In this document: positions 3,997 to 44,332 of the stretch, piece after piece
Position numbering within the stretch: the stretch's first letter is position 1
Layout: every line of letters starts with the position of its first letter
NCBI RefSeq assembly: GCF_947494025.1
Contig: NZ_CANLTQ010000023.1
Location: 1-46,446 of the forward strand
Reading direction: 5' to 3'
Length of the DNA: 46,446 bases
Source: an uncultured Jannaschia sp.
GTDB taxonomy: Bacteria > Pseudomonadota > Alphaproteobacteria > Rhodobacterales > Rhodobacteraceae
Notes under the pieces: model-generated
Databases searched by the model: none
What the model saw: the letters and a program-made list of their open reading frames with translations, nothing else
What the model was told of the DNA's origin: nothing
Translations under genes and position numbers: made by a program

Positions 3997-5255
3997 CGAG
4001 ATTGCTACCCTCGGCCGCGCTGGCGGCCCTCCTCGTATCGGGCGGAGCGGCGCAAGCGCAGACCCTGCGCGTGGTCGAGGTGCTGACCACCAACGAGCGC
4101 ACCGGCCTGATGGAACAGATCGTGAGCGACTTCGAGGCCGCGCATGAGGGCGTCGAGGTCGAGCTCGTCTCGGTGCCGTGGGATTCCGCCTTCGAGCGCA
4201 TCCTCAACATGGCGATGTCCGGCCAGCAGATCGACGTGCTGGAGATGCCCGAGCGCTGGATCTCGACGCTGGCGATCAACGATGCGCTGACCGATCTCGG
4301 CCCCTGGCTCTCCGAATGGGAGGGGGCGGACGGACTCACCGACGCCACGATGGACTTCACGAAGATCTACGGCGACACGTCCTATTTCGTGCCCTACGGC
4401 TACTTCGTCCGCGCGATGTACTACAACAAGCCTCTCCTCGAGGAGGCGGGCTACACCGAGCCGCCCGCCACCTGGGACGAGTTCAACGAGATGGCCCGCG
4501 CCGTTTCCGAACTCGACGGCAAGTATGGCTACTGCCTGCGCGGCTCGACCGGTGGGTTCGTCGGCTGGTGGCTCGCCACCTCGGCCATGACCGGCGCGGA
4601 GACCTGGTTCAACGAGGACGGCACCTCGGTCTTCGGGAGCCCCGAGGCGGTCGAGGGCATCCAGATGATGCTCGACCTCTACAACGACGGCGCCGCGCCC
4701 GAGGATTCGGTGAACTGGGCCTTCAACGAACAGGTCTCGGGCTTTTACTCGGGCACCTGCGCCTTCATGGATCAGGATCCGGACGCGCTCATCCAGGTGC
4801 GCGAGCGGATGGGCGACGACTTCGCCACCGCGCCGGTGCCGCTCGGACCTCCGGGACAGATCTCGCCGCCGATCGGCATGATCGGCTGGGCCGTGCCGAC
4901 GAGCTCCGAGAACCCCGAGCTCGCGAAGGAGCTCCTGGGCGAGCTGATGGCGCCCGAGGTCAACCTCGAATGGGCGAAGTTCATGGGCGTGGTCCCCGCC
5001 GTGGAGATCCCCGAGGACGACACCTATTACAGCGACCCGGTCTTCGACGGTTTCTTCGCCGAGCTCGAGGGCGACCAGTGGCAGCTGATGACCTGGCCCG
5101 CGCACCTGCCGGAGCTGGGCGAGTTCTTCGACGTGATCGCGGTCGAGACGAGCCAGGCCGCGCTTCTGGGCCAGATGTCGGCCGAGGAGCTGGCAGAGGA
5201 ATGGGACAGCTTCCTGACCGAGGCGCAGCAGCGCTGGATGGAAGAGAACCCGTGA
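3993..5255 (+). CDS. ABC transporter extracellular solute-binding protein (CUT1 type)
   Basis: A 420-residue family 1 solute-binding protein. An N-terminal signal peptide (MTRLLPSAALAALLVSGGAAQA, likely cut after AQA near residue 22) sends it to the periplasm. Body motifs typical of sugar/glycerol-phosphate binders include DVLEMPERW, YYNKPLLEEAGYTEPPATWDEF and GAAPEDSVNWAFNEQVSGFYSGTCAF. The start ATG 3993 overlaps the preceding stop, with GGGAGAAACGA as ribosome binding site. It should capture ligand and deliver it to the two permeases and the ATPase downstream. CUT1 systems usually carry di- or oligosaccharides, sugar alcohols or glycerol-3-phosphate. The ligand here is unknown, and the neighbouring PLP enzyme hints at something other than a plain sugar. 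Confidence 0.93.
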   Translation: MTRLLPSAALAALLVSGGAAQAQTLRVVEVLTTNERTGLMEQIVSDFEAAHEGVEVELVSVPWDSAFERILNMAMSGQQIDVLEMPERWISTLAINDALTDLGPWLSEWEGADGLTDATMDFTKIYGDTSYFVPYGYFVRAMYYNKPLLEEAGYTEPPATWDEFNEMARAVSELDGKYGYCLRGSTGGFVGWWLATSAMTGAETWFNEDGTSVFGSPEAVEGIQMMLDLYNDGAAPEDSVNWAFNEQVSGFYSGTCAFMDQDPDALIQVRERMGDDFATAPVPLGPPGQISPPIGMIGWAVPTSSENPELAKELLGELMAPEVNLEWAKFMGVVPAVEIPEDDTYYSDPVFDGFFAELEGDQWQLMTWPAHLPELGEFFDVIAVETSQAALLGQMSAEELAEEWDSFLTEAQQRWMEENP

Positions 5256-6178
5256 GCCTCGCGGCGGACAATCCTGCGACGGGACGTTCGCCGGGCACCT
5301 TTCGGCGGCGGCTCCGCGCCGCCGAACCTTACGGATACGTGGCGCCGGGGCTGCTGGTCGTGGCGCTCGTCATGCTCGTCCCGCTGGCCGTGGGCATCTC
5401 CTTCTCGTTCCAGAACTACGTGATCTTCCGCCCCGCCTCGCGCGGCTGGAGCGGGTTCGAGAACTACGCCGAGATCTGGAGCGACCGGACCTTCTGGCTG
5501 GCGCTCTCGAACACCGCGAAGTGGACCTTCTGGTCGGTCGCGTTCCAGCTCGGGCTGGGTCTCGGGCTGGCGCTGATCCTGAACAAGCCGTTCTTCGGTC
5601 GCGCGGTGTTCCAGTCGCTCGTGTTCCTGCCCTGGGCGGTGCCGACCTTTCTGTCGGGGCTGAACTGGCAATGGCTCTACAATCCCCTCGTGAGCCCGCT
5701 TCCCGCCGCGCTGGCCGCCGTTGGCGTGCTCGACGAGCCGCGCAACATCCTGTCGGATCCGGACCTCGCGCTCTGGGGGCCGATCACGGCGATGATCTGG
5801 TGGGGCGTGCCGTTCTTCGCGATCACGCTGCTGGCCGCCCTGCGCTCGATCCCCTCGGACCTCTACGAGGCGGCGGCCATCGACGGCGCGACGCCGTGGC
5901 AGGCGTTCCGCCATATCACCGTGCCGTTCCTGCTGCCGATGATCACGATCACCATCCTGCTGCGCACCGTCTGGGTCGCGAACTCGCCGGAGCTCATCTT
6001 CGTGATGACCGAGGGTGGGCCGGCCAACAGCTCGCAGACCTTGCCGAACTACGTCTTCACCTCCGCCTACAGCTCGATGAACTTCGGTTACGCCTCCGCG
6101 CTCGCGACCGTGCTGATGGTGATGCTGGTGATCTACTCGGTCCTTCTCCTGTGGGTCCGCGGGAGGCTCGGACGATGA
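5252..6178 (+). CDS. CUT1 ABC transporter permease, MalF/UgpA-like
   Basis: A 308-residue inner-membrane permease with about six transmembrane segments; the first is GLLVVALVMLVPLAVGISFS near residue 37. The cytoplasmic EAA loop, EAAAIDGATPWQAFRHITVP, contacts the ATPase. The start is GTG 5252 in a GTGA overlap with the binding-protein stop. The frame is open far upstream of this but that part is a shadow of the binding-protein gene. It pairs with the 274-residue permease encoded next to form the transmembrane channel. Confidence 0.93.
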   Translation: MSLAADNPATGRSPGTFRRRLRAAEPYGYVAPGLLVVALVMLVPLAVGISFSFQNYVIFRPASRGWSGFENYAEIWSDRTFWLALSNTAKWTFWSVAFQLGLGLGLALILNKPFFGRAVFQSLVFLPWAVPTFLSGLNWQWLYNPLVSPLPAALAAVGVLDEPRNILSDPDLALWGPITAMIWWGVPFFAITLLAALRSIPSDLYEAAAIDGATPWQAFRHITVPFLLPMITITILLRTVWVANSPELIFVMTEGGPANSSQTLPNYVFTSAYSSMNFGYASALATVLMVMLVIYSVLLLWVRGRLGR

Positions 6179-6999
6179 GGGCGGTGACCGGCACCGCGCT
6201 CTGGCTCGTGCGGCTGCTCTATCTCGCCTTCGCGCTGTTTCCGCTGCTGTGGCTGCTCCGGATCGCGCTGACGCCCGACGAGATCCTCTACCGGGAGGGG
6301 ACGACGCTCTGGCCCTCGCGGACCACGCTGGCGAACTTCGCCTACGTGATCGAGGAAAGCCCGTTTCCGGTTTTCTTCGCCAACACCATCGTCGTCGCTC
6401 TCGGCACCGCCGCCGCCGTGACATTGCTCGCCGCGGGGATCGGCTACGCCTTTTCGCGCTTCCGCTTCCGGGGGAAATCCGCGCTGATGGTGTTCCTCGT
6501 CATCACCCAGCTCTTCCCGATCGTGATGGTCATCACGCCGCTCTACCAGCTGCTCGCGCCGATCGGGCTCGTGGACACGCGGATCGGGCTGATCCTCGTC
6601 TTCACCGCCTTCAACCTGCCCTTCGCCGCGTTCCTTATGCATTCCTTCTACGAGGGCATTCCCGCCGAGCTGGAACAGGCCGCGATGATCGACGGCTGCA
6701 CCCGCTTCCAGGCGCTGGTGCGGATCGTGCTGCCGCTGATGCTGCCGGGGATCGGCGCGACGGTGGGCTTCGTGTTCACCGCCGCCTGGTCGGAGCTTCT
6801 GTTCTCGCTGATGCTCATCACTTCGGAATCGAAGAAGACCTTCGCCGTGGGGCTTCTGGGCTTCGTCGGCAAGTCGGGGGTGGATTGGGGGCAGATGATG
6901 GCCGCCGCGACGCTGGCGCTGATCCCGCCCGCGATCTTCTTCACCCTGATCCAGAAATACCTCGTGGGCGGCCTGACCGCCGGCGCGGTCAAGGCCTGA
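6175..6999 (+). CDS. CUT1 ABC transporter permease, MalG/UgpE-like
   Basis: A 274-residue inner-membrane permease, about six transmembrane helices, normal length for MalG-type partners. The EAA motif is [21 protein letters not shown]. The start ATG 6175 overlaps the stop of the first permease (ATGA), so the two are translationally coupled. The C-terminus ([14 protein letters not shown]) is the usual MalG-like ending. It completes the heterodimeric translocation channel of this importer. Confidence 0.93.
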
Positions 7000-7009
7000 G
7001 GAGGGCGCG

Positions 7010-8122
7010 ATGGCCGAAGTCACCCTGAAGGGGGTCGCGAAATCCTACGGCCGGACCCCGGCGGTGCGGGAGTTCGACCTCGACATCGCCGACGAGGAGT
7101 TCGTGGTCTTCGTGGGGCCTTCGGGCTGCGGCAAGTCGACGACGCTCCGGATGATCGCCGGGCTCGAGGACATCACCGGGGGCGAGATCCGCATCGGCGA
7201 CCGCGTGGTGAACGACCTGCCGCCGCGCGACCGCAACATCTCGATGGTGTTCCAGAACTACGCGCTCTACCCGCACATGACCGTTCGCGAAAATCAGGCC
7301 TTCGGCCTGCGTCTCGCCGGGCGCGCGAAGGAGGAGATCGCGCGGAAGGTGGCCCGTGCCTCGGGCATCCTCGGGCTCGACCCCTATCTGGAGCGTCGGC
7401 CCGCCGCGCTGTCGGGCGGCCAGCGGCAGCGCGTCGCGATGGGCCGCGCCATCGTGCGCGACCCGGACGTGTTCCTGTTCGACGAGCCGCTCTCGAACCT
7501 CGACGCGAAGCTGCGCGGCCAGATGCGGACCGAGATCAAGAAGCTGCACGAGAAGGTCCGCACTACCGTGATCTACGTCACCCACGATCAGGTCGAGGCG
7601 ATGACGCTCGCCGACCGGATCGTGGTGATGCGCGATGGCCGGATCGAGCAGGTCGGCACCCCGGAGGAGGTCTATCATCGCCCCGTCTCCGACTTCGTGG
7701 CGAGCTTCATCGGCAGCCCGCCGATGAACCTTCTCGAGGGCCGCATCGTGGCGGAGGGCGACGCGCCGGCGGTGGCGCTGTCCGGCGGGCCGGTCCTGCC
7801 GCTCGGCCCCGGCCATGCCCGGCTTCCGGCGGGAGCCTCGGTCACGCTGGGCCTGCGACCGGAAGCGATCGCGCCGCAGGGTATGGCCGGGCCGATGCGC
7901 CGGCCCTTTGCGTTCGAGGCGGATATCACGCTGGTGGAGCCGTTGGGCGGCGAGGCGCTGATCTTCCTCGCTCTTGGCGATCGGGAGATGACCGCCCGGG
8001 TGTTCCGCCCCCCCGCCCGCCTCGCGCCGGCCCGGGGCGTGCAATTCCTGGTCGATCTGGCGGAGGCGAGCGTGTTCGACGGCGGGACGGGACGACGGCT
8101 GGGCGATGACGGGGCGAATTGA
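7010..8122 (+). CDS. CUT1 ABC transporter ATP-binding protein, MalK/UgpC-like
   Basis: A 370-residue ATPase of the MalK/UgpC type that powers the importer encoded just upstream. Walker A is [16 protein letters not shown], the ABC signature [19 protein letters not shown], and Walker [17 protein letters not shown]-loop [16 protein letters not shown] follows. The C-terminal TOBE-type regulatory domain (about 240-365, including [12 protein letters not shown]) is typical of ATPases shared by, or regulated through, sugar transporters. GGAGGGCG precedes ATG 7010. It is the last gene of the operon. A frameshifted remnant of a similar ATPase lies at 19149-19380. Confidence 0.94.
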
Positions 8123-8340
8123 CGACACGGAACCGGCACGGCAGGGCGATGCGCGCGGCGTCTCGATGATGCGGACGCGCCGTTCCGCCGCCCGGAGGGC
8201 CGGCTGGCCCCCGACCGCCCCCGTCACGCCGCAGCTGTGCCTCCGACGCGACGGCGGGAACCGGTCCCGCGACGCGGCGCCGCCCCGATCAGGTGACGTA
8301 AAGTAATTTTGCGCGAAAGAACGTTCGCCCGGCCCGCCCC

Positions 8341-9318
8341 TCAAAGCGGATGCCAGCACGCGACCCTGTGGCCGGGCGCGATCTCCGCGAGGGGCGGGGC
8401 CTCGGCGCGGCAATGCCCGGTCGCGCGGGGGCACCGGGCCGCGTAGACGCAACCGGCATTCGGCTGTGCCATGTCCGGCGCCGCAGCGGGCGGGGCGCTC
8501 CGCCGCCGCAGCCGCTGCGCGGGCGGGTCGGGGACCGGCACGGCGGACAGCAGCGCCTCGGTATAGGGATGGCGCGGATTGTCGTAGATCGCGTCGCGCC
8601 CCGCGATCTCCATCATGCAGCCGCCGTAGAGGATCGCCACGCGGTGCGAGATATGGCGGACGACCGCGAGGTCGTGGGCGATGAACAGGTAGCTCAGCCC
8701 CTCCTGCCGCTGGATGTCCTGCATCAGGTTCACGACCTGCGCGCGCACGGAAACGTCGAGGGCGGAGACCGGCTCGTCGGCGACCACGAGGCCGGGGCGG
8801 AGCGCGAGGGCGCGGGCGATGCCCACGCGCTGGAGCTGACCGCCCGAGAACGCGTGCGGAAAACGCGCCCCGGAATCGGCGGGCAGGCCGACCTTTTCGA
8901 GCAGCGCCGCCACGCGGTCCCGCATCTCGGCGCGCGAGGCGGCGCGGCGATGGACCAGAAGCGGCTCCCCCACGATGTCGGCGATCCGCATCCGCGGGTT
9001 CAGACTGGTGAACGGGTCCTGCAGGATCAGCTGCATCTCCGCGCGCAGCCGCCGCAGGGCGGGGCCGCTCGCATGGGTGATGTCGGTGCCGCGGAACAGG
9101 ATGCGGCCGCCCGAGGTCTCGACCCGGCGCAGGATGGCGCGACCGGCGGTGGTCTTGCCGGAGCCGGACTCCCCCACGAGGCCCAGCGTCTCTCCGGGTT
9201 CGATCTCGAAGCCGATGCGGCGGAGCGCGGGGACCTGGCGCCGGCGCGGCCAGAGCCCGCCCCGATCCGTCACCGTGTAATCGACGCTGAGATCCTCGAC
9301 CGCGAGGGTGGGGGTCAT
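8341..9318 (-). CDS. Oligopeptide/dipeptide ABC transporter ATP-binding protein, DppF/OppF-like
   Basis: A 325-residue ATPase, the second NBD of a peptide-type importer. Walker A is GESGSGKTTAGRAIL, Q-loop LILQDPFTSLNPRM, signature FSGGQLQRVGIARALA, and Walker B LVVADEPVSALDVSV. The oligopeptide C-terminal domain with Cys residues (CVYAARCPRATGHC), typical of OppD/F and DppD/F, is present. The start ATG 9318 overlaps the stop of the upstream dppD-like gene (ATGA). An upstream in-frame extension is a shadow of that gene. It is the last gene of a five-gene minus-strand operon and converges on the sugar-importer operon across about 220 bp. Confidence 0.93.
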   Translation of the reverse strand: MTPTLAVEDLSVDYTVTDRGGLWPRRRQVPALRRIGFEIEPGETLGLVGESGSGKTTAGRAILRRVETSGGRILFRGTDITHASGPALRRLRAEMQLILQDPFTSLNPRMRIADIVGEPLLVHRRAASRAEMRDRVAALLEKVGLPADSGARFPHAFSGGQLQRVGIARALALRPGLVVADEPVSALDVSVRAQVVNLMQDIQRQEGLSYLFIAHDLAVVRHISHRVAILYGGCMMEIAGRDAIYDNPRHPYTEALLSAVPVPDPPAQRLRRRSAPPAAAPDMAQPNAGCVYAARCPRATGHCRAEAPPLAEIAPGHRVACWHPL

Positions 9319-10286
9319 GGCGCCACCTCCGCCCAGGCCGCCGCGCCCGCCCGCCAGCAGGCCGCCCGACCGGTATCCGTGGCCGCGAAGGGGGGCGGCG
9401 CGAGGCAGGCCGCGTCGGCGATCGGGCAGCGCGGCCGGAACGGGCAGCCCGCGGGCGGCGCGCGGAGCGAGGGCGGCGCGCCGTCGATGGCGACGAGGCG
9501 CTCCGTCCGGTTGTCGAGCCCGGGCGTCGCGCGCAGGAGGCCCTGTGTGTAGGGATGTGCGGGGTTCGCGAAAAGAGCGTCGATTTCGCCCGTCTCCACG
9601 ACGCGACCCGCATACATGACCGCGACCCGGTGGCACAGCCCCGCGACGACGCCCAGGTCGTGGGTGATGAGGATGACGGCGAGCCCACGGCGGGCCTGCA
9701 ATCCTGCGAGGAGGTCGAGAATCTCCGCCTGCACCGTGACGTCGAGCGCGGTGGTCGGCTCATCGGCGATCAGGAGCGCGGGCTCGCAGGCGAGGGCCAG
9801 TGCGAGCGCGACGCGCTGCAGGATGCCGCCCGAAAGTTCGTGCGGATACTGGTCGAGGCGCCGCGCGGGCGCGGAGAGCGCGACCTCCGCCAGAAGCTCG
9901 GCGGCCCGGTCGCGGGCGGCGCGGCGGGACAGGCCGTGGTGATGGCGCAGCGTCTCGACGAGCTGCGCGCCGATCGTCATCAGCGGATTGAGCGACTGCA
10001 TCGGGTCCTGGAACACGCAGGCGATCTCCCGGCCGCGCAGTCCCGCCGCGTCGCCGAGCGGACGGCCCCGCCAGAGGATCTCGCCGCCCGTCACCCGACC
10101 CGGCAGCGGCAGGAGGCCCAGCATCGCCTGCGCCGAGACGCTCTTGCCCGAACCGGATTCGCCCACGATGCCCAGCGTCTCCCCCGCCGCGACCTCCAGC
10201 GAGACGTCGGAAACGGCCCGCACGAGCCCCGCGCGGGTGGGGAAAACGACGCGGAGGTCGCGCACAGCGAGGAGCGGCGCGGTCAC
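9315..10286 (-). CDS. Oligopeptide/dipeptide ABC transporter ATP-binding protein, DppD/OppD-like
   Basis: A 323-residue ATPase, first NBD of the peptide-type importer. Walker A is GESGSGKSVSAQAMLG and Q-loop FQDPMQSLNPLMTIG. The signature is LSGGILQRVALALALA, where ILQ departs slightly from the usual MRQ. Walker B is LLIADEPTTALDVTV. The C-terminal Cys motif is CPFRPRCPIADAAC. The start GTG 10286 forms a GTGA overlap with the stop of the upstream permease. Its partner is the DppF-like ATPase downstream. Confidence 0.92.
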   Translation of the reverse strand: MTAPLLAVRDLRVVFPTRAGLVRAVSDVSLEVAAGETLGIVGESGSGKSVSAQAMLGLLPLPGRVTGGEILWRGRPLGDAAGLRGREIACVFQDPMQSLNPLMTIGAQLVETLRHHHGLSRRAARDRAAELLAEVALSAPARRLDQYPHELSGGILQRVALALALACEPALLIADEPTTALDVTVQAEILDLLAGLQARRGLAVILITHDLGVVAGLCHRVAVMYAGRVVETGEIDALFANPAHPYTQGLLRATPGLDNRTERLVAIDGAPPSLRAPPAGCPFRPRCPIADAACLAPPPFAATDTGRAACWRAGAAAWAEVAP

Positions 10287-11257
10287 TGCGCCCGTCCGGC
10301 AAGCGCCCGCGCGGCACGGGACCAGCCGAACCGCTTCTCGCGCTCGCGCGGGTCGGTGGTGACGCGCAGCCATCCCGCGAAGAGGTTCACCCCCAGCACC
10401 GTGACCGCGATGGCGAGACCCGGAAAGGTCACGAGCCACCACGCCACGAACACGTAGTCCCGCCCGCTCGCCACATCGAGGCCCCAGCTCGTCGCGGGCG
10501 GCTGCACGCCGAGGCCCAGGAACGAGATCGCGGCCTCGGCCAGGACGACGTTTGTGAATTCGAGGATCGCCACGGTCAGGAGCGGCGAGACGAGGTTCGG
10601 CAGGATATGGCGCCACAGGATCCGCACCGGCCCGCAGCCCACGATCTCCGCCGCCTCCACATAGGGCGCGCTGCGGAGCGACAGCACGGTGCCGCGCACG
10701 AGGCGCGCGTAGATCATCCAGTTGGTGATGGCGAGCACGACCACGATGGTCAGAAGGCTCGGGCCGACCACGGACACGATGAGCAGAATAAGGAGCACCC
10801 CGGGAAACGAGACCTGGATGTCGACGAGCCGCATGAGCACGGCATCCGTGCGCCCGCCCGCGTAGCCCGCCACAAGCCCCACGAGCACGCCGAACGATCC
10901 CGACAGGAGCACCACCGCGACGCCCACGAGAAGCGTGGCGCGGGCGCCCCAGATGATCCGGCTGAGCACGTCGCGGCCGAGCGCGTCGGTGCCGAGCAGG
11001 TGCGCGGGATCCCCCCGCGCCAGCCAGGCCGGCGGGGCCAGCCGGGCGAGCACGGATTGCGCGGCCGGATCGTGGGGCGCGATCCACGGCGCGAGCAGGG
11101 CCATGCCGACCACGCCGAGGAGGAGCAGGAGCCCGATCAGGCCGGGCACGTCCTCGCCCAGCTCGGCCGCCATCGCCCGCGCCCGCCGGCCGCGTCCCTC
11201 GGAGAAGGCGGGATCAGCCAAGGCCGATCCGGGGGTCGACGAGCTTGAAGACGACAT
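10283..11257 (-). CDS. Oligopeptide/dipeptide ABC transporter permease, DppC/OppC-like
   Basis: A permease of up to 324 residues with the DppC N-terminal signature PHDPAAQ and LLGTDALGRDVLSRIIWGAR. The coupling loop is YVEAAEIVGCGPVRILWRHI, followed by LPNLVSPLLTVAILEF. About six membrane helices are present. The start is uncertain. ATG 11257 overlaps the dppB-like gene by about 40 bases and gives a low-complexity Ser-rich leader. TTG 11221 (in a TTGGCTGA overlap) and ATG 11173 are alternatives, and I lean toward TTG 11221 on spacing. It forms the membrane channel with the DppB-like protein. Confidence 0.9.
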   Translation of the reverse strand: MSSSSSSTPGSALADPAFSEGRGRRARAMAAELGEDVPGLIGLLLLLGVVGMALLAPWIAPHDPAAQSVLARLAPPAWLARGDPAHLLGTDALGRDVLSRIIWGARATLLVGVAVVLLSGSFGVLVGLVAGYAGGRTDAVLMRLVDIQVSFPGVLLILLIVSVVGPSLLTIVVVLAITNWMIYARLVRGTVLSLRSAPYVEAAEIVGCGPVRILWRHILPNLVSPLLTVAILEFTNVVLAEAAISFLGLGVQPPATSWGLDVASGRDYVFVAWWLVTFPGLAIAVTVLGVNLFAGWLRVTTDPREREKRFGWSRAARALAGRAQ

Positions 11258-19809: not shown

Positions 19810-22629
19810 ATGCGGATGCAGAACCTCGACTTCCACGCCGACGCGGTGTTCGACGACGCGGCACCGGAACAGGCCCTCGTCCTGAACGAGGTGCTGGGCT
19901 CCACCACCGGAGTCGACAGCGAGTATATCGAGCTCTTCGGGGAGGCCGGAGCCTCGCTGGACGGCCTGAGCGTGATCGTCGTGGAAAGCGATGCGGGGTC
20001 CGGCAACGGCGCGATCGACGTCCGGCTCGATTTCGGCGCGCAGGACGCGATCGGCGCGAACGGCTTTTTCCTCGCCGCGAACGGCATCGCGGCGACGACC
20101 TACGGCGTGACGCCGAACCTCGTGATCGCGGACGATTCCATCGAGAACTCCTCCTACACCATCGCACTGGTGGAGACCGCGAGCCTCGCGGGCGGGACCG
20201 TGACCGGAAACGAGGTCGTGCTCGACGCGGTCGGCGTGACGGACGGCGAGGGGGCGGAGAGCTTCGCCTTCGGCGCGCCGGTCGTCGGCCCGGACGGCAG
20301 CTTCCTGCCCGCCGGCGTGGGCCGCGTGGAGGACGGCGTCGACACCGACGATGTATCGGACTTCGAGATACTCGACTTCAACAACCGCGCGCCGAACTCG
20401 CCCACGGCCGGCACGACGGGCGACGATGGCGGACCGGGAACCGGCGACGTCACCATCGACGACGCGCCAACCCTCGTCAGCGCGATCCAGGGCGCGGGCG
20501 AGGCGAGCCCGCTCGCCGGGCAGGCCGTCGTGGTCGAGGCCATCGTTTCCGGCGACTTCCAGAGCGGCGACGACGACGACTTCCGCAACCTCGACGGCTT
20601 CTTCCTGATGGAGGAGCGGACGGACTTCGACACGGACGACATGACCTCCGAAGGCATCTTCGCCTTCGAGGGCGGGGACACCCGGCTGGACGTGGCCGCG
20701 GGCGACCGGGTCCGGGTGCTCGGCACCGTGGTCGAGCGGTTCGGCAAGACCACGATCGAGGTCGCGGAGATCCGCATCGAGGATGCGGCGGTCGAGACCG
20801 ATGTCCTGTCGCTCGCCGTGGAGAGCGCGCTGCCGCCCCTCGCCGCACGCGAAGCGCTGGAAAGCATGCTTGTCGACTTCAACGAGCCGCTCACCTTCAC
20901 CGAGAGCTTCGACTACGAGGCGTTCAACAACGGCACGCTGGCCGCCGGCGGCCCGGTCTACCAGTACACGCAGCTCAACGCGCCCGACGTGGCGGGCAAC
21001 GCGGCCTATCTCGCCGAGGTGGCGGACCGGACCATCGCCATCGACGACGGCCGCAACGCGGCCCGCGACGATTTCGACCCGATCCCGGAACCCGACGGCG
21101 ACCCCTTCACCCTCGCCAGCGGCGTGCGGATGGGGCAGGATTTCGACCTGACCGCGATCGTGGACTTCGATTTCGGCGAATGGCGGCTCCGCCTGCCCGA
21201 AGGCGCCGCGTTCGAGCCCCTGCCGGGCGACGAGCGGCCCGACGCGCCGGCGGATGTGGGCAGCGATTACAAGGTCGGCTCGCTCAACGTGCTGAACTAC
21301 TTCACGACGCTCGAAGGGCAGACCGATATCGGGCAGGGCCCCCGCGGCGCCGGCAGCGCGGCGGAGTTCGAGCGCCAATCCGACAAGCTCGTCTCGGTCA
21401 TCCGGGGCATGGATGCCGACGTGATCGCGCTGAACGAGATCGAGAACGACTTCGCCGGCGAGAATTTCGCGATCGCGGAGCTGGTCTCGCGCCTCAATGA
21501 CGGGATCGAGGGGGCGCCTTGGGCATTTGTGGATCCGAAACAGGAATTCGTCGGCGGCGACGCGATCGCGGTGGCCTTTCTTTACAACAGCGAAACGACG
21601 CGCCTCGCGCCGGGCACCAGCGTCGCGACGCTGACTGACGATCAGCTCGCCGGGCTCGGCGTCGATCCGGGCAATCCGATCTTCGAGGGGCCGGGCACCG
21701 CCCGCGTGCCGCTCGCCGCGACCTTCGAGGAGATCGCCACCGGCGAGCGCTTCACGGCGGCGGCCAACCACTTCAAATCCAAGGGCTCGGTCAGTCCGTT
21801 CGGGGACAATGCCGACCGGGGCGACGGGGCGGGGTCCAACGACGAGGCCCGCGCGCAGGCCGCCGCGGCGGTCGATGCCTGGCTCGCCAGCGATCCGACC
21901 GGTTCCGGCGATCCCGACCGGATCATCCTCGGCGACCTGAACTCCTACGCGCAGGAGACGCCTTTGCAGGTCCTCGCGGCGGCGGGCTACACGAACCTCG
22001 TGGCCGCCGAAGAGGGGCTGACCTCGACCTCCTACCGCTTCTCGGGTCAGGTCGGGACGCTCGACTACGCGCTCGCCAACGACGCGATGGCGGCGCAGGT
22101 GACCGGGGCCACGATCTGGGACATCAACGACGAGGAGCCGGTCTTCTTCGACTACAACCTCGACGGAACCTTCACCGATCCGCTCCGGCCCACCGATCAG
22201 GGCCTCTTCGACGGCGGCTCGCCGGCGGCGGCCTCGGACCACGATCCGGTCGTGGTCGGGCTCGACCTCGGCGCGGGCGCGGCGCCGATCCTCATCGCGG
22301 GCACGGCGGGGAACGACAGCCTGCGCGGCACCGATGCGGACGAACGGCTGGTTTCCGGCGGCGGGCGGCTCGACGTGCTGCGCGGCGCGGGCGGGGCGGA
22401 CGTGTTCGAGTTCACCTCCGAGGCCGGCGCGCGCAACACCGTCCAGATCCGCGACTTCGACGCGAGCGAGGGCGACCTCATCGACCTCGGCGGGGCGACG
22501 CCGGCCGATGCGCGGGAACTGGGCGCGAACGTGCTCCTGCAACTGGCGGAGGACGGCGACTCGATCCTCGTGCTGGGCGCCAGCCTCGCCGGGCTCGCCT
22601 TCACCGACAACAGCCTCGTCGTCGCCTGA
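19810..22629 (+). CDS. ExeM/NucH-family extracellular endonuclease with C-terminal calcium-binding (RTX-like) tail
   Basis: 939 residues. Start ATG 19810 has GGAG seven bases upstream; a GTG at 19717 has no such site. Domains in order: a lamin-tail-like beta module (about 15-170, ALVLNEVLG then EYIELFGEAG), and an acidic linker. An OB-like segment (about 215-340) follows, with ADVTVDD-like start TIDDAPTLVSAIQG. The EEP nuclease domain (about 480-815) has KVGSLNVLNYF, DVIALNEIEND, AANHFKSKG, ILGDLNSYAQETP and SDHDPVVVGL as the catalytic and metal motifs. The C-terminal tail has GTAGNDSLRGTDADE and GADVFEF, typical of hemolysin-type Ca2+-binding proteins exported by type I secretion. No Sec signal peptide is visible, which fits. 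It should degrade extracellular DNA. Confidence 0.9.
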   Translation: MRMQNLDFHADAVFDDAAPEQALVLNEVLGSTTGVDSEYIELFGEAGASLDGLSVIVVESDAGSGNGAIDVRLDFGAQDAIGANGFFLAANGIAATTYGVTPNLVIADDSIENSSYTIALVETASLAGGTVTGNEVVLDAVGVTDGEGAESFAFGAPVVGPDGSFLPAGVGRVEDGVDTDDVSDFEILDFNNRAPNSPTAGTTGDDGGPGTGDVTIDDAPTLVSAIQGAGEASPLAGQAVVVEAIVSGDFQSGDDDDFRNLDGFFLMEERTDFDTDDMTSEGIFAFEGGDTRLDVAAGDRVRVLGTVVERFGKTTIEVAEIRIEDAAVETDVLSLAVESALPPLAAREALESMLVDFNEPLTFTESFDYEAFNNGTLAAGGPVYQYTQLNAPDVAGNAAYLAEVADRTIAIDDGRNAARDDFDPIPEPDGDPFTLASGVRMGQDFDLTAIVDFDFGEWRLRLPEGAAFEPLPGDERPDAPADVGSDYKVGSLNVLNYFTTLEGQTDIGQGPRGAGSAAEFERQSDKLVSVIRGMDADVIALNEIENDFAGENFAIAELVSRLNDGIEGAPWAFVDPKQEFVGGDAIAVAFLYNSETTRLAPGTSVATLTDDQLAGLGVDPGNPIFEGPGTARVPLAATFEEIATGERFTAAANHFKSKGSVSPFGDNADRGDGAGSNDEARAQAAAAVDAWLASDPTGSGDPDRIILGDLNSYAQETPLQVLAAAGYTNLVAAEEGLTSTSYRFSGQVGTLDYALANDAMAAQVTGATIWDINDEEPVFFDYNLDGTFTDPLRPTDQGLFDGGSPAAASDHDPVVVGLDLGAGAAPILIAGTAGNDSLRGTDADERLVSGGGRLDVLRGAGGADVFEFTSEAGARNTVQIRDFDASEGDLIDLGGATPADARELGANVLLQLAEDGDSILVLGASLAGLAFTDNSLVVA

Positions 22630-22672
22630 CGCCCCGTTCTTCCTCAAGGTCATTTCAAAAGGAGACCACCGC

Positions 22673-23221
22673 ATGACTTCCACCACGACGAGAACCCTTC
22701 TGGCCGGCGCCTTCGCCTGTCTCGCCACGACCGGGCAGGCGGCGACGCTCGGCCTCGCGACCGGCGCGTCGGTCCTGAGCGGGACGGGCGAGGCGTTCTT
22801 CGTTCCCGGATCGGACCTGTCCTTCGCGGGCCTGAGCGCCGACGGCGCCGACATCGCCATCGCCGCCGCGCTCGAGACCGGCGACGCGCCGGGCGCCGTT
22901 CTCGTGGACGGCCTCCTTTCGGGCAGCGTCGCGGGCTTCGGCTTCGAGATCGACGCCGGCACCGATGGCGGCGACGTGATCGAGATCGACTTCCGTCCGG
23001 ACGACGGAAGCCTCGCCGACGCGCTCGGGCCGCGCGCGCTCGCCGTGCTGACAGGAGAGTTCGGCACGGACGACGGCTTCGCGGAGACGGCGTTCTTTTC
23101 CGCCGCGAGCGTCACGATCGCCCCGGTGATCGAGGTCGCCCCGATCCCGCTGCCCGCTTCCGGCCTGCTTCTGGTCGGTGGCATGGCCGCGCTCGCCCGG
23201 CGCCGCCGCGCGCGCGGCTGA
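22673..23221 (+). CDS. Exported protein with VPLPA-CTERM-type sorting signal
   Basis: 182 residues. A Sec signal peptide (RTLLAGAFACLATTGQAA) is followed by a Gly/Asp/Ala-rich beta-type body. The C-terminus is a tripartite sorting signal: IPLPASG motif, hydrophobic helix LLLVGGMAALA, and Arg cluster RRRRARG. This is the VPLPA-CTERM variant of PEP-CTERM, which exosortase-type enzymes are thought to process in Rhodobacteraceae. ATG 22673 has AAGGAG upstream. It follows the nuclease gene by 43 bp and is probably co-transcribed. The body is not recognised. A cell-surface or envelope role is inferred. Confidence 0.82.
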   Translation: MTSTTTRTLLAGAFACLATTGQAATLGLATGASVLSGTGEAFFVPGSDLSFAGLSADGADIAIAAALETGDAPGAVLVDGLLSGSVAGFGFEIDAGTDGGDVIEIDFRPDDGSLADALGPRALAVLTGEFGTDDGFAETAFFSAASVTIAPVIEVAPIPLPASGLLLVGGMAALARRRRARG

Positions 23222-28109: not shown

Positions 28110-29573
28110 ATGTCGCACACGCCGGAAACCCTCGATCCCGCGGATTGGGAAGCCCACCGCGCTGTCGCGCACCGGATGGTGGACGATGCCGTGAACTACG
28201 TCCGGGACGTCCGTTCCCGGCCGGTGTGGCAAGACATGCCGCCGGATGTGCGTTCGCGCTTCCGCGATGGCGTGCCCGAGGACGGCCAGCCGCTCCCCGA
28301 AATCTACCGCCAGATCGTCACGGACGTTCTGCCCTACCCGATGGGCAACATCCATCCACGGTTCTGGATGTGGTATATGGGGGCGAGCAACTTCACCGGG
28401 GCTCTTGGGGATTTTCTCGCCGCCATCCTCGGCTCCAATCTCGGCGGCGGTGACCACGCCGCGGCGGAGATCGACAAGCAGGTCGTCAACTGGATGAAGG
28501 AGATGACAGGTTACCCACCGGAGGCCGGCGGCACGCTTGTCTCAGGCGGTTCGATGGCCAACCTGATCGGCCTGACCGTTGCACGCAACACGATGTCGGG
28601 CATCGACCTGCGCGAGCTTGGCGTCGGCGCGCTGCCTGCGCCGATGCGGTTCTACGGCTCCGACCAGATCCATTCCTGCCACCAGATCGCGGTCGAAGCG
28701 ATGGGTCTGGGCAATCGGGCGCTGAGACGGGTGCCGTCCGACGCGGCTTGCCGAATGGATCTTTCCGCCCTGCACGGGGCCATCGCCGACGACCGGGCGG
28801 CCGGACTGCACCCCGCCTGTGTGATCGCGACGGCCGGGACCGTGAACACCGGTGCCATCGACGACCTCCAGGCGATCGCGGACATCTGCGCCGCGGAAGG
28901 GCTGTGGATGCACGTGGACGGCTGCATCGGCGCGCTTCTCGCGATCGCGCCCCGCGGACGGGCGCTGGTGCGCGGCATCGCACGCGCGGATTCCATCGCC
29001 CTCGACCCGCACAAATGGCTCCATGCGCCGTTCGAGGTCGGCTGCGCGCTGGTGCGGGACGCCGAGGCGCATCTCGGTGCCTTCTCCGTCATGCCGGAAT
29101 ACCTCGAGGGGGCGCCGCGGGGCATCGCCTCGGGGGCGTGGCTGCACGATTTCGGCCTCCAGACATCGCGGGGGTTTCGCGCCCTCAAGGTCTGGATGGC
29201 GCTGAAGGAACATGGGCTGGCGAAGTTCGGGCGGCTGATCGAGCAGGACCTCGCCCATGCCCGCCACCTCACCGAACGGATCGCAGCCAAGCCGAACCTG
29301 GAGCTGTGCTTTCCGACGGCCATCAACATTGTCTGCTTCCGCTACGATCCCGGCGGCCTTCCGGAAGCGGCGGTCAAGCAGCTGAACACCGAGATCATGG
29401 TGCGGATGCAGGAAACCGGCATCGCCGCGGTCTCGGACACGACCGTGAGAGGGCGACACTGTTTGCGCGCGGCGGTAAACAATCACCGGACAACAAAGGA
29501 CGACCTGGATATTCTGGTGGAAGAGGTCGCACGGCTGGGCGCGGTGCTGGTTTCCGAAACCCTCGTTGGCTGA
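28110..29573 (+). CDS. Group II PLP-dependent decarboxylase family protein
   Basis: 487 residues, of the aromatic-amino-acid/glutamate/cysteine-sulfinate decarboxylase superfamily. Motifs are MGNIHPRFWMWYMG, GGTLVSGGSMANLIGLTVARN, ATAGTVNTGAIDDL and WMHVDGCIGALLAIA. Lys302 in LDPHKWLHAPFEVGC binds PLP. The length matches DDC/GAD-type enzymes. It begins three bases after the CysK-like stop, so it is coupled to it. Its substrate is probably made by, or related to, the preceding enzyme's product. Cysteine, cysteate, cysteine sulfinate or another beta-substituted alanine are candidates by inference. Annotations as aspartate aminotransferase-family reflect the shared fold. Confidence 0.88.
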   Translation: MSHTPETLDPADWEAHRAVAHRMVDDAVNYVRDVRSRPVWQDMPPDVRSRFRDGVPEDGQPLPEIYRQIVTDVLPYPMGNIHPRFWMWYMGASNFTGALGDFLAAILGSNLGGGDHAAAEIDKQVVNWMKEMTGYPPEAGGTLVSGGSMANLIGLTVARNTMSGIDLRELGVGALPAPMRFYGSDQIHSCHQIAVEAMGLGNRALRRVPSDAACRMDLSALHGAIADDRAAGLHPACVIATAGTVNTGAIDDLQAIADICAAEGLWMHVDGCIGALLAIAPRGRALVRGIARADSIALDPHKWLHAPFEVGCALVRDAEAHLGAFSVMPEYLEGAPRGIASGAWLHDFGLQTSRGFRALKVWMALKEHGLAKFGRLIEQDLAHARHLTERIAAKPNLELCFPTAINIVCFRYDPGGLPEAAVKQLNTEIMVRMQETGIAAVSDTTVRGRHCLRAAVNNHRTTKDDLDILVEEVARLGAVLVSETLVG

Positions 29574-40231: not shown

Positions 40232-41605
40232 ATGCTGGATACGGTAATCGTCGGTGCGGGATTTGCCGGTCTGTCGGCGGCGAGGACACTCATCACGAAG
40301 GGTCGCGAAGGCTTCGTCATCCTCGAGGCGCGGGATCGCGTCGGCGGGCGGACCAAACCGGGCGTGATCGGAAACCTCGACATCGATCTTGGCGGCATGT
40401 GGATGGCACCGGGGCAGGCACGGCTGAAGCGTCTCGCCGCCCATTATCGCGTCCGCCCATACCCAACCTATCTCGATGGCAATGCGGTCTTTCGCATCAG
40501 CAAAAGAGAGCGGCAGGGCCCGCGCGAGGATCTGAGCCGGCTCTTCGGCATAGGGGGCGGCCTCGCTTATCTGCATGCCCGGTGGAAGCTCGAGCGGCTT
40601 ATGGCACCGCTCGACACCGAGCGACCCTGGGCGCATCCCGAAGCGGAACGGCTCGACGCGATGACCGTGGAAACATGGATCGCGCGAAATGTCCTCCATC
40701 CCCTGCCTCGCGTCGCATTCCGAACAGTCTGCGCCACGATCCTCTGCGCCGAGCCATCGCAAGTTTCGCTGTTATTCTTTCTGCATTACTTGAAGTCGGG
40801 CGGTGGGCTCGAAGTCTTGATATCTTCTGATACCGGCGGGGCGCAGAACCTCCTTTTTCATGGTGGCGTTCATCAGATCAGCCGTTTCATGGCCGACGAG
40901 ATCGGGGAGCGGCTACGCCTCGAAGCGGCGGTCAGCGCGATCGAATGGAACGACGACGCTGTGACAGTGCATAGCGAAAGGGGCAGGTTCACCGCCCGCA
41001 AGGCTATCATCGCGGTTCCGCCGACGCTCCTGCGCCGGATCCGGTTCACGCCGGAATTGCCGCAACCGAAGACCGCGATCCACGACCGTCTGTCCATGGG
41101 CTCTTCGATCAAGTTCTGGGTTCTCTACAGGACGCCGTTCTGGCGCAAACGAGGGCTGAACGGTACGATCCTGCGCGACGACGTTCCCACAACGCCGATC
41201 ATGGACGTATCACCGACGGGCCAGGATCGGGGTCTGCTCGTCGGGTTCTTCGATGGCAACCATGCGATCCGGCATGCCGATCTGACGACGGAGGATCGTC
41301 GCATCGTCGTGCTCGAGATGCTTGCCGAGCATTTCGGTCCCGAAGCGCTGCGACCTCTGGATTATATCGATCACGACTGGACCGACGAGGAATGGTCGGG
41401 CGGATGCTACGGTGCCTATGCGCCGCCGGGTGTGTTCGCCCGCTACGGCGAGCACCTGCGAATCCCGATCGGTCCGTTGCATTGGGCAGGAACGGAAACC
41501 GCGTCGGAATGGACGGGCTACATCGAGGGGGCCATCCAGTCGGGTGAACGGGCAGCAGGGGAAATCATGCGAGCGATGCCCGTTCAGAATGATGGATCGG
41601 CTTGA
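40232..41605 (+). CDS. Flavin-containing monoamine oxidase-family protein
   Basis: 457 residues, FAD-dependent amine oxidase (MAO/PAO family). The N-terminal dinucleotide fold is VIVGAGFAGLSAARTL, with ILEARDRVGGRTKPG as second motif. Near the C-terminus WSGGCYGAYAPPGVFARYGE contains Cys392. It sits where eukaryotic MAO A/B carry the cysteine that binds FAD covalently (SGGCY). The FAD-closing motif HWAGTETASEWTGYIEGAIQ follows. No signal peptide, so it is probably cytoplasmic. It should oxidise primary amines to aldehydes with H2O2 and ammonia. It converges on the aminotransferase/acyl-reductase fusion gene, which could produce such an amine. Substrate is inferred only. Confidence 0.9.
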   Translation: MLDTVIVGAGFAGLSAARTLITKGREGFVILEARDRVGGRTKPGVIGNLDIDLGGMWMAPGQARLKRLAAHYRVRPYPTYLDGNAVFRISKRERQGPREDLSRLFGIGGGLAYLHARWKLERLMAPLDTERPWAHPEAERLDAMTVETWIARNVLHPLPRVAFRTVCATILCAEPSQVSLLFFLHYLKSGGGLEVLISSDTGGAQNLLFHGGVHQISRFMADEIGERLRLEAAVSAIEWNDDAVTVHSERGRFTARKAIIAVPPTLLRRIRFTPELPQPKTAIHDRLSMGSSIKFWVLYRTPFWRKRGLNGTILRDDVPTTPIMDVSPTGQDRGLLVGFFDGNHAIRHADLTTEDRRIVVLEMLAEHFGPEALRPLDYIDHDWTDEEWSGGCYGAYAPPGVFARYGEHLRIPIGPLHWAGTETASEWTGYIEGAIQSGERAAGEIMRAMPVQNDGSA

Positions 41606-41674: not shown

Positions 41675-44332
41675 TCAGGCACGCTTGCCGATAGTTCCAG
41701 CACGCTCCGAGGCACCGGGGCGATCGATACGGGTCGCGGCGACGTGACCCGCGAAGGCCGCAAGTTCTCCCTCGGCGACGTGACGACCGTACCATTGCGG
41801 CGGCGCCGGCTCGAAGCCGTGCTGGTCGGCAAGTTCGGCGAGGTGATCGGCATCCGCGAGCGACAGGCGCGAGCCGATGCTGTAATCCCGCTTTTCCCGT
41901 GCCAGCGCCAGCAGCATCGTCTCGCCGAGGCATCCCCAGCAAAGATTGGCGGGCAATGTCTGGAACGGGCCGAGATCGACCTCGAAGGGCGGCTGGATCA
42001 GTCCGCCGTCAAAAACCAGCACGCGGGCCGACGGGATCTCGGCCGGGGCCACGTTGGGCGGTCGCGCGATGTCGCAGACGAGCGTGCCGGGCCGCAGATC
42101 GAGCGGATCGATCAGGGCCATTTCGGAGCTCGTCGCGACCAACACGATGTCGGCATCCGCAACCGCGACCTCGAGCGGCGTGCTCCAGTCGACCAATGGC
42201 CGCGTGCCTTGGCTCTGAAAGGCGGTGCCAAATCGTTCGGCCAAACCCTTTCTTTCGCCCTGTAAGCCGAACTTGGCCTGCCGGGCGATCCCACGGACAA
42301 CGGTTCGCAGATTGCCCGGACGATGCTTCGTGATCTCGGGCGGATCGAGGAGCGTGCCATAGACCTCGTCGGCCACACGGGAGAGAAGCCTTGGCGTGAA
42401 AGGATTGGCGGCATTGCCCACGAGGCTCAGCCGGCCGATCCGGCGGCCGAGCATCAGACTTGCCAGGCGGCCGATCGCGCCGGACGCGCCCACCACGACG
42501 ACATGCGCGTCCTCGAGCGATAGGCCCGCCCGACTGGCCACCCGTTCGATGCCTTTGACGGCCGAGACCGCGGTCAGCGTGTTGCCACTGGTGATCGGCA
42601 CACCGCGGCCCGTGGCCGTTTCGCCGCCGCGAGTGACAATCGAGGTGAAGGCGCCGAGGCCCACCCGCGACGCACCGTTCTTCGCGGCCAGATCGACGCC
42701 GCCCTTGATCATGCTCGCCGCAACACTGCGCCCACCGCCGCGCATGTCTTGAGGCAGCATTGGAACGGACATCAGCCACCCTTCTGCCGTCGCGCCGGTC
42801 TTCGACGTGACCTCGGGCATGCGACGGACGAAGCCGGGCCCGAACTGCTTGACCCAGTTGCACCAGTTGGCGAGTTCGTCCGCGCTGAACTGGCGGAAAG
42901 ACGGGTCGGAGCGAAAGATATCTTCCGGTTCCGTGTAGTGGATAAGAAAGGTAAAGCGGCCTTCCTGATCGGGCATCGGCGGCGTCACGGCAGGCCGCGC
43001 TTCCGCATCAGGCAGGTCGGAACACGCTGGCACGGGCTTGGCCACGAGGTGCCGAACCAACCGATAATAATCCCGCGCTGCCAGCACATCGCAGACCGCG
43101 TTCAGCGCCGCGACCGCGCGGTCGATCTCGACCCGCCCGGAAGTAAGGGTCGGCTGCAGGCGCATCACATGGGTCTCGTTGAAAAGCGGCGCCGTGAGCA
43201 CGCCCTCGACATTGAGCAGATAGGAGCTGATCAGCGGCATGACGCCCCCGTTCAGGCTCGCGAACGCCATGATTGCGGAATCGGCGCGTTTGTCGAATCG
43301 CTGGAATTCGAGGCCCAGCATGTAGCCACGTCCGCGCACCTCGCGAATGACCTCCGGATACTTGTTCCGCAGGTCCTCCAGACGGCCATGCAGATAGGCT
43401 CCGTTCTCGGCAACGTCACGGATCAAAGCCTGATCGTCGGCGAGCAAGCGGTCGAGCGTGGCCATCGCCGCCCGGCTGGCCAGGTTATTGTTTGCAAAGG
43501 TAGAACTATGGCGCCGACCGAAATCGTCGTCCCACGCCGAGGGGCGCACGACAAGGGCGCCGATCGGCATCATGCCGCCGCCGAGCGCCTTCGACAGGAG
43601 CAGCATGTCGGGCACCTCGGCGCCGTCCGAACAGGCGAACAACCTGCCCGTGCGGCCCATCCCGGTCTGGATCTCGTCGAGAATGGTCAGCACGCCGTAT
43701 TCGCGGCAAAGCGCTATGGCACCGTCGACATAGCCTTCGGGCGGGCAGATGACACCGCCTTCGCCTTGGATCGGCTCGAAGATGAAGGCCGCGATGCCGT
43801 CCGCGGCCACCGAGAGGCGGTCGCGCAACGCGTTCAGATCGCCGTAGGGGATGTGGTCGAAGCCCGGCGCCGGAGCGGCGAATCCTTCCTGATACATCGG
43901 TTTACCAGTGGCCGAGAGCGCGCCAAGCGTCTTGCCGTGAAAACCGTTGCCCGTCGACAGGATGCCCGTCTTTCCACTTTTGAGCCGAGCGAGCTTGATT
44001 GCTGCCTCGACCGTTTCGGCTCCGCTGTTCGTCAGCGTGGTGATCGAAAGATCGCCCGGCGTAACCTCGGCCAGGCGCTCGGCAAGACGCTCGGCCTCGA
44101 CAGGGCGGAGCGGCTGAACCATGGAGGGCAGCGCCTCGGCCTGCGCCGCGTTCAGAGCCGTCCAGATTTCGGACGGATTGTGGCCGAAGGGGAGCGCCCC
44201 GTATTGCGACAGGAAATCCAAGTATTCGCGACCCTGTTCATCGAAGAGCCGAAAGCCGGAACCACGCACCATACGGGCGTCGAGGGCGAACATTTGAAGC
44301 AGATTCTTACGCGCGGGGTTCAGAGCTGTCAT
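41675..44332 (-). CDS. Class III aminotransferase fused to an acyl-ACP reductase (AAR)-like domain
   Basis: 885 residues, two enzymes in one chain. Residues 1 to about 445 are a class III (ornithine/GABA-type) aminotransferase. Motifs are TLTNSGAETVEAAIKLAR, FEPIQGEGGVICPPEGY, LDEIQTGMGRTG and Lys248 in LLSKALGGGMMPIG for PLP. After a linker with a Pro-rich stretch, residues about 470-850 resemble cyanobacterial long-chain acyl-ACP reductase. They show GLGAFTSIVTRGGE, ITSGNTLTAVSAVKG, and a Rossmann motif VVVVGASGAIGRLASLML near 611-628. CWGCLGETMLLAL puts Cys801 at the AAR catalytic-cysteine position, with Cys798 nearby. The inferred chemistry is acyl thioester to aldehyde (NADPH), then to primary amine. 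PigE of prodigiosin synthesis has analogous functions in the opposite domain order. ATG 44332 has AAGG upstream. Confidence 0.88.
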   Translation of the reverse strand: MTALNPARKNLLQMFALDARMVRGSGFRLFDEQGREYLDFLSQYGALPFGHNPSEIWTALNAAQAEALPSMVQPLRPVEAERLAERLAEVTPGDLSITTLTNSGAETVEAAIKLARLKSGKTGILSTGNGFHGKTLGALSATGKPMYQEGFAAPAPGFDHIPYGDLNALRDRLSVAADGIAAFIFEPIQGEGGVICPPEGYVDGAIALCREYGVLTILDEIQTGMGRTGRLFACSDGAEVPDMLLLSKALGGGMMPIGALVVRPSAWDDDFGRRHSSTFANNNLASRAAMATLDRLLADDQALIRDVAENGAYLHGRLEDLRNKYPEVIREVRGRGYMLGLEFQRFDKRADSAIMAFASLNGGVMPLISSYLLNVEGVLTAPLFNETHVMRLQPTLTSGRVEIDRAVAALNAVCDVLAARDYYRLVRHLVAKPVPACSDLPDAEARPAVTPPMPDQEGRFTFLIHYTEPEDIFRSDPSFRQFSADELANWCNWVKQFGPGFVRRMPEVTSKTGATAEGWLMSVPMLPQDMRGGGRSVAASMIKGGVDLAAKNGASRVGLGAFTSIVTRGGETATGRGVPITSGNTLTAVSAVKGIERVASRAGLSLEDAHVVVVGASGAIGRLASLMLGRRIGRLSLVGNAANPFTPRLLSRVADEVYGTLLDPPEITKHRPGNLRTVVRGIARQAKFGLQGERKGLAERFGTAFQSQGTRPLVDWSTPLEVAVADADIVLVATSSEMALIDPLDLRPGTLVCDIARPPNVAPAEIPSARVLVFDGGLIQPPFEVDLGPFQTLPANLCWGCLGETMLLALAREKRDYSIGSRLSLADADHLAELADQHGFEPAPPQWYGRHVAEGELAAFAGHVAATRIDRPGASERAGTIGKRA

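Follow-up and report, generated by a model that had tools for sequence, protein, structure and literature searches.

The stretch of DNA analysed here (46,446 nucleotides, the whole of which is called the window) comes from an uncultured Jannaschia sp. of the Rhodobacteraceae (NZ_CANLTQ010000023.1 of assembly GCF_947494025.1, or contig C23 of genome G000). It encodes a fusion of a class III aminotransferase with a thioester reductase, and this fusion is linked to the XrtD/VPLPA-CTERM protein-sorting system: the exosortase XrtD and one family of VPLPA-CTERM proteins, here called the cargo. The link is the unforeseen and surprising part of the analysis, and was absent from the initial annotation of the window. 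Each of the 22 fusion-bearing genomes gives a strong match to a cargo profile, as against 0 of 246 fusion-free genomes of the family (up to 12 candidates scored in each), while XrtD is present in 20 of the 22 and in 52 of the 246 (51 of these over the curated cut-off). In the Rhodobacteraceae the fusion, a dedicated VPLPA-CTERM protein and usually XrtD are found together, suggesting that they work as a module; fusion and cargo, at least, very likely form a functional one. The fusion is, with reasonable probability, a TamH-like amine synthase serving an exosortase-sorted surface protein.

The fusion gene lies on the minus strand and has the following parts:

41675..44332, minus strand: aminotransferase–thioester reductase (TA–TR) fusion protein of 885 residues, a probable acyl-thioester to primary-amine synthase (translation, domain matches)
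43100..44272, minus strand: class III aminotransferase domain, residues 21–411 (Pfam PF00202, Aminotran_3, E 3.4e-82)
43589..43591, minus strand: codon of Lys248, the pyridoxal phosphate (PLP) lysine by the motif LLLSKALGGG (alignment of 22 rows)
41783..42976, minus strand: acyl-ACP (acyl carrier protein)/thioester reductase-like domain, about residues 453–850 (matches to the PigE N-terminus and to acyl-ACP reductase, AAR)
42467..42502, minus strand: Rossmann motif VVVVGASGAIGR, residues 611–622 (alignment)
41930..41932, minus strand: codon of Cys801, aligned with Cys294 of AAR (kept in 22 of 22 rows)

The frame runs through 885 codons without a stop and is not a chance open reading frame (ORF), because the window protein and 20 family members are 52–84% identical over their aligned parts. 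The alignment of the fusion has 22 rows, the window protein and 21 relatives (L026, described below, included). In all 19 rows compared for their start, position 1 is a methionine; as rows were trimmed at the start of the match, this backs the start codon only in part. The best solved relative of the aminotransferase domain is PigE (4ppm). When residues 453–885 were searched alone they matched the N-terminal half of PigE (4ppm, E 7.5e-36) and Synechococcus-type AAR structures (6jzq, E 6.1e-18), and they matched the NCBIfam AAR model TIGR04058 at E 1.3e-19, with 70.8 bits against a curated cut-off of 449.7. Counted on the pairwise alignment, Cys801 corresponds to residue 294 of 6jzq; Cys294 is named as the catalytic cysteine of AAR in the accessible part of PMC9594044. 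The cysteine is retained in every row of the alignment, and Lys248 in 21 of 22, the remaining row (L027) ending at a contig end. The initial annotation had proposed an aminotransferase joined to an AAR-like domain in one frame, with PLP Lys248, a Rossmann motif near residues 611–628 and Cys801 at the position of the AAR catalytic cysteine; the domain searches and the alignment bear this out on each point, including the match of the C-terminal domain to AAR in a profile search. That Cys801 would lie close to the NADPH site is suggested by its alignment with AAR Cys294. Among the best 50 structure matches of an AlphaFold2 model of the fusion (mean pLDDT, the predicted local distance difference test score, 82.5), only the transaminase domain is represented, so that the model neither supports nor refutes the reductase site.

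Sequence comparison supports a fusion of thioester reductase and transaminase in which the two active-site residues are conserved, and such a protein would in all likelihood convert an acyl thioester to a primary amine in two steps. At the C-terminal reductase, Cys801 would accept the acyl chain of a carrier-protein thioester, and reduction with NAD(P)H would give the aldehyde, which the N-terminal PLP domain would aminate to a primary, and to judge from its homologues probably long-chain, amine. A 'fatty' substrate and channelling of the aldehyde between the domains are what we infer from this arrangement.

The domain architecture is already known from TamH. PtTamH of Pseudoalteromonas tunicata, from the tambjamine YP1 pathway, has the transaminase first and an AAR-like thioester reductase second, and together with TamA it converts a C12 acid to the C12 amine (PMC9594044, accessible part). 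The initial annotation had named PigE as an analogue with the opposite domain order; the reversed order of PigE stands, but PtTamH, with the same order as the fusion and a demonstrated activity, was overlooked, and for this reason the fusion itself is no discovery. The two proteins share domain order, PLP lysine, GxxGxxG motif and catalytic cysteine, whereas PtTamH belongs to a pigment gene cluster, has 941 residues and has an ACP-adenylation partner, TamA. A TamH-like protein of G323, used as a stand-in for PtTamH, is 32–36% (TA) and 25% (TR) identical to the window protein by BLASTP. PigE, which acts in the 2-methyl-3-n-amylpyrrole (MAP) branch of prodigiosin synthesis, is described in the accessible part of PMC8341465 as having the reductase first and the transaminase second. 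It thus has the same two domains in reversed order, in a prodigiosin pathway with PigD; two proteins over the PigE cut-off are 39–41% (TA) and 29–30% (TR) identical to the window protein by BLASTP. On the PigE model NF053554 the window protein scores 539.4 bits, below the cut-off of 850, against 1408 and 1432 bits for two true members. The proteins of G396 and G592 have the reductase first, as in PigE, and the window protein the opposite. By sequence, then, the window protein has the layout of TamH and domains closer to those of PigE. Cyanobacterial AAR, which feeds alkane synthesis, shares sequence kinship with the reductase domain and the equivalent of Cys294 (6jzq, TIGR04058), but it is a stand-alone enzyme, and the fusion reaches 71 bits on its model against a cut-off of 450.

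A contig scan gave 23 fusion loci, of which 22 were analysed, one per genome; L028 is labelled as the same isolate as L009 and was left out. The family proper comprises 20 genomes (L007–L025 and L027), two loci not being counted: L026, 38% identical, and L029, a partial transaminase match. The 20 genomes are labelled Rhodobacterales, Rhodobacteraceae or genera taken as such, with the exception of one metagenome-assembled genome (MAG) labelled Verrucomicrobia. Among 248 genomes drawn evenly from the Rhodobacteraceae and scored at up to 7 candidates per genome, the fusion was found in two, G000 (the window's own) and G159; a weak match in G111 (29% over 194 residues in a frame of 3263 residues) was not counted. 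The 22 fusion genomes are therefore the 20 family locus genomes plus G000 and G159. A reductase profile run on 398 genomes of the phylum, with up to 4 candidates scored in each, found six, the five besides G000 being distant. The fusion family is sporadic in the Rhodobacteraceae. The Fisher values given below serve as guides only, the negatives having been sampled evenly across genera and the positives picked by likeness to the query.

The VPLPA-CTERM proteins adjoining the fusion align as one homologous family. The cargo profile was made from 16 cargo domains with their tails removed; the cargo of G159 is part of it and that of G000 is not. The association of cargo and fusion has a Fisher p of 1e-32, for sequences that are not independent, and on the even draw alone it is 2 of 2 versus 0 of 246 (p 3e-5). 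Weak matches occur in 4 of the 246 fusion-free genomes (G007, G032, G067 and G192; E 1e-16 to 1e-24). The 22 locus genomes gave 20 cargo matches, the two misses being those outside the fusion family; the match in G256 is weaker (E 2.7e-22) and concerns a cargo fragment adjacent to the fusion, where the contig stops (L015). Cargo proteins outside the profile were found in nine of nine cases (G000, G250, G255, G256, G261, G268 and the plasmids L113–L115).

In 16 of 20 loci a cargo gene is found no more than 1 kb from the fusion, 15 of them recognised by pattern and L016 by homology. Of the four other loci, L009, L014 and L027 are cut off on one side of the gene by the end of the contig; L020 has flanking sequence on both sides and no cargo nearby. 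Fusion and cargo are on separate contigs in G000, G250, G255 and G261; contig ends are close by in the first three, where a link across the gap is possible. In G261 the cargo lies deep within another contig (C18:666277), and in G268 it is about 90 kb from the fusion on the same contig. In a structural model (mean pLDDT 82.6) the L025 cargo consists entirely of beta strands, forming a beta sandwich, followed by a helix at residues 221–237. Carbohydrate-binding modules are among its best Foldseek matches, weakly, the first being CtCBM11 (E 6.6e-6, TM-score 0.37/0.49); on this model the cargo is possibly a glycan-binding surface protein.

The XrtD count in fusion genomes is made up of 18 of the 20 family locus genomes, G000 and G159, and on the even draw alone the link has a p of 0.05. 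XrtD is also present in three of three species with fusion-bearing plasmids. The system resembles the one described by TIGR04152 and TIGR03370, with XrtD and VPLPA-CTERM proteins present in G000 and their genes linked to the fusion in several relatives. A tree was built of 42 XrtD proteins, 20 from fusion genomes and 22 from fusion-free ones. On it the label 'genome has fusion' requires 8 changes, at least 5 of them forced by well-supported branches, compared with an average of 14.3 for shuffled labels. The label is clustered on the tree and not of single origin; given the number of changes, the link between fusion and XrtD was not inherited from one XrtD lineage, and the tree rules out one origin of the fusion inside a single XrtD clade. 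Mirror distances are correlated (Spearman) at 0.42 for fusion and cargo (17 genomes), 0.40 for fusion and XrtD (16) and 0.36 for cargo and XrtD (16), moderate values which could be obtained from shared taxonomy alone.

Neighbour clusters present in at least three loci comprise VPLPA-CTERM proteins, XrtD (605 bits against a cut-off of 400), a PrsT-like tetratricopeptide-repeat protein, a rhomboid protein, DUF218, Wza-like export, a flavin oxidase and a cluster termed c6. The PrsT-like and rhomboid proteins at first looked like partners of the fusion. The first of these two, PrsT-like, reaches 265 of 312 bits on its model; the rhomboid scores 37 of 84 bits on rhombosortase and is Rhomboid by Pfam. 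Both were dropped as partners of the fusion, since among 20 fusion-free XrtD stretches the former occurs in 11 and the latter in 8, indicating that they belong to XrtD loci generally. In the same 20 stretches the DUF218, c6, Wza, cargo, fusion and flavin-oxidase queries all had no match at E 1e-8. The c6 protein (L019 12956–14554 and relatives) looks secreted, has about 530 residues and has no Pfam or NCBIfam match at the limits used, for which reason an earlier MdoG label was withdrawn; it is matched in 6 of 23 fusion sources, namely 5 of 21 scan loci and L057.

In a plasmid collection the fusion query found 22 records, 9 of them covering at least 80% of the query. Three are close, those of Pseudorhodobacter turbinis (72.5% identical), Haematobacter massiliensis (64.1%) and Rhodovulum sp. 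P5 (56.6%), and the other six are 32–39% identical. The cargo adjoins the fusion on all three close plasmids (E 1e-51 or better), and VPLPA-CTERM is annotated in both of the annotated records. XrtD is on the same plasmid in Rhodovulum; for the other two it is found on a separate plasmid record, which agrees in species and sample source and may or may not come from the same strain. The G000 cargo used as a single query found three plasmids, two of which are close fusion plasmids, and did not reach the Rhodovulum cargo. On the third, from Palleronia sp. LCG004, the stretch examined contains no fusion, and the plasmid is not among the best 15 of the 22 fusion records; another plasmid record under the same name carries XrtD. 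The 64 kb Rhodovulum sp. P5 plasmid (L113, 1678–24338) encodes both XrtE and XrtD, hence two exosortases, alongside genes for polysaccharide export.

To our knowledge the attachment target of exosortase substrates is not settled. Among the matches listed in a literature search, none reported a fatty-amine enzyme together with an exosortase or VPLPA-CTERM protein. According to the accessible part of a 2025 paper, exosortase substrates seem to be surface-anchored, suggesting transpeptidation with some new C-terminal moiety (PMC11980579). If the fusion serves the cargo, the amine would most likely be used in the envelope, either as the lipid joined to the cut C-terminus of the cargo or as a lipid with which the cargo works. 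A more specific form of this proposal, drawn by analogy and decidedly tentative, is that the long-chain amine would be the acceptor which resolves the XrtD acyl-enzyme; the cargo, cut at its VPLPA site, would then carry a C-terminal N-alkylamide as lipid anchor. Amine-lipid pathway genes are neighbours of artA in Methanosarcina (artA-pssA-pssD) and are involved in the maturation of ArtA substrates in Haloferax (PMC7157517, accessible part), and rhombosortase is reported to leave an ethanolamine-bearing group (glycerophosphoethanolamine) on the cut C-terminus of VesB (PMC6219818, accessible part). ArtA with PssA/PssD and rhombosortase are alike in that the sorting protease is thought to hand its substrate to an amine-bearing lipid; they differ from the present proposal in that ethanolamine lipids carry the amine, in place of a simple alkylamine. 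If true, the acceptor reading would show by what chemistry a bacterial exosortase attaches its substrate, and proteins would be lipidated in a new way. A gene for an amphiphilic amine that tracks one family of sorted proteins leads to a specific chemical prediction, and would give a fatty-amine enzyme a role beyond pigment pathways.

Several observations weigh against an amine made for the sorting system. The 246 negatives were scored at up to 12 candidates per genome and the positives at all, which makes the zero slightly less sure. G251, a draft, and G256, a MAG, contain fusion and cargo with no XrtD, and with no exosortase by the broad model TIGR04178. In G000 itself fusion, cargo and XrtD are on three contigs (C23, C8 and C10). 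The amine is no general need of XrtD, because XrtD occurs in 52 of the 246 genomes that lack the fusion. G000 has 18 VPLPA-CTERM sites (E ≤0.01), and one cargo family, the one profiled, is known to follow the fusion. The frequency of XrtD without the fusion, together with the single cargo family among many, speaks against the acceptor form in particular; were that form true, the amine would be cargo-specific. The number of changes on the XrtD tree may also reflect transfer of XrtD, which is often plasmid-borne. As for the chemistry, the substrate of PigE, to which the fusion is nearer in sequence, is not a plain long fatty acid. PtTamH, in turn, uses NADH and not NADPH, and gave no amine from C12-CoA (PMC9594044).

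Other explanations have to be set beside the proposed service to a sorted protein. The fusion might be an ordinary TamH- or PigE-type enzyme of a small molecule, such as a tambjamine- or prodiginine-like pigment or another alkylamine, its link to the surface being indirect, for example through joint regulation of biofilm formation. The characterised relatives encountered do serve natural products, and distant relatives are found in other settings (large ORFs at L026; an adenylating enzyme, pabB and MMPL in Leisingera; desaturases in G323). We nevertheless consider this explanation unlikely. Neighbour clusters in at least three loci are mostly concerned with sorting or polysaccharide export, or are unnamed, the flavin oxidase being the only obvious small-molecule enzyme, and the cargo accompanies the fusion even across separate contigs. 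Moreover, a PigD relative of G592 (622.9 of 950 bits on NF053552, its best and only family), used as query, had no match at E 1e-15 in five of five fusion-bearing genomes tried, G000 included, and was found in two of two PigE-bearing genomes; a prodiginine pathway is therefore disfavoured, tambjamine genes not having been searched for. A further explanation, that fusion, cargo and XrtD just share mobile biofilm plasmids or islands, draws on the three close fusion genes and 25 XrtD matches in plasmid records, on the 16 of 20 loci in which fusion and cargo are neighbours, and on the cargo of G000 and G255 near a contig end, where linkage across the gap is possible. It fits poorly with the G261 pair on different contigs, the cargo deep inside one of them, with the distance of about 90 kb in G268, with Haematobacter massiliensis, where XrtD is found on a different record from the plasmid that carries both fusion and cargo, and with the lack of any strong cargo match in the fusion-free genomes; taken together, these make it improbable.

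More credible than either, yet still doubtful, is a role in the extracellular matrix, in which the amine decorates an exopolysaccharide or the outer membrane, the cargo is a glycan-binding matrix protein and the exosortase makes no use of the amine. A Wza query matches 6 of 23 fusion sources and 0 of 20 fusion-free XrtD stretches; L113 (annotated) and L057 (read from ORFs) carry Wza-like, Wzz and CpsD genes, with glycosyltransferases in one of them, and the nearest structure matches of the cargo model, weakly, are carbohydrate-binding modules. Exosortases are, however, generally said to lie near polysaccharide genes (PMC12188702, accessible part), so that these genes have no necessary tie to the amine, and it is the sorted protein that tracks the fusion in all 22 genomes.

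Next to the fusion in the window is a convergent gene:

40232..41605, plus strand: flavin oxidase of the amine-oxidase superfamily, convergent neighbour of the fusion (PF01593, E 4.6e-68)

The PF01593 superfamily also includes desaturases, and no NCBIfam model is near its cut-off, the best being HpnE at 63.5 of 283 bits. Of the 22 fusion genomes, 9 have a homologue of at least 63% identity, the matched frame containing a single stop codon in two of them; a close homologue is present in 0 of 14 chosen XrtD genomes without the fusion. Among the 248 family genomes, scored at up to 6 candidates, the oxidase is present in one, G000 (0 of 246 fusion-free), with two others at 35–36%. Oxidase and cargo are on different contigs in G252, G253, G258 and G265. 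On this sequence evidence the oxidase is possibly an accessory in part of the fusion family, and its superfamily allows the guess that it might remove surplus amine. If it does act on amines, an amine consumer following an amine maker would suit the proposed product.

The G000 XrtD gene (C10:74839–76308) scores 652 bits, and the cargo gene (C8:2445–3062, E 1.6e-56) encodes a tail above the TIGR03370 cut-off. Contig C23 ends at 46446, 2.1 kb past the fusion, and the cargo starts 2.3 kb into C8. One further feature, outside the system, lies between the fusion gene and the contig end:

45737..46186, minus strand: IS110 transposase fragment (NF033542, profile positions 198–342 of 343)

On C8 (L081; 578–1882 and 2340–3077) the cargo gene adjoins an ORF that encodes the C-terminal portion of an IS66 transposase. 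With an IS66 ORF by the cargo and an IS110 fragment by the fusion, mobile elements may have split the pair in G000.

The distant relatives occur in varied surroundings. In L082 (G323 C5:143000–159000), the genes at 3772–10745 encode the TamH-like transaminase-reductase of 1013 residues, two fatty-acid desaturases and a member of the Metal_hydrol family; together they may form a route to an unsaturated long-chain amine. A Leisingera thetidis plasmid (L116, 9959–14146) encodes a longer aminotransferase protein of about 1395 residues (32% identity across the matched part), and its cluster also contains pabB and genes for an adenylating enzyme and an MMPL transporter; five Leisingera plasmids carry a relative, two of them from marine biofilm. 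In L085 (G403, 5690–7765) an AAR-like reductase domain is joined to a different N-terminal part in a protein of 691 residues, and the window transaminase domain has no match in that stretch. L026 (8993–12457), from Marinibacterium profundimaris, holds the distant fusion at 38% identity followed by two ORFs of 1353 and 1928 residues; profile searches of its genome gave no cargo match and no XrtD. Within the window itself, a VPLPA-like ORF at 22334–23221 was rejected as a pattern match only, with no C23 site among the VPLPA-CTERM sites and no Pfam match. At 28110–29573 the window encodes a PLP-dependent decarboxylase, whose nearest model is diaminobutyrate decarboxylase (182 of 900 bits).

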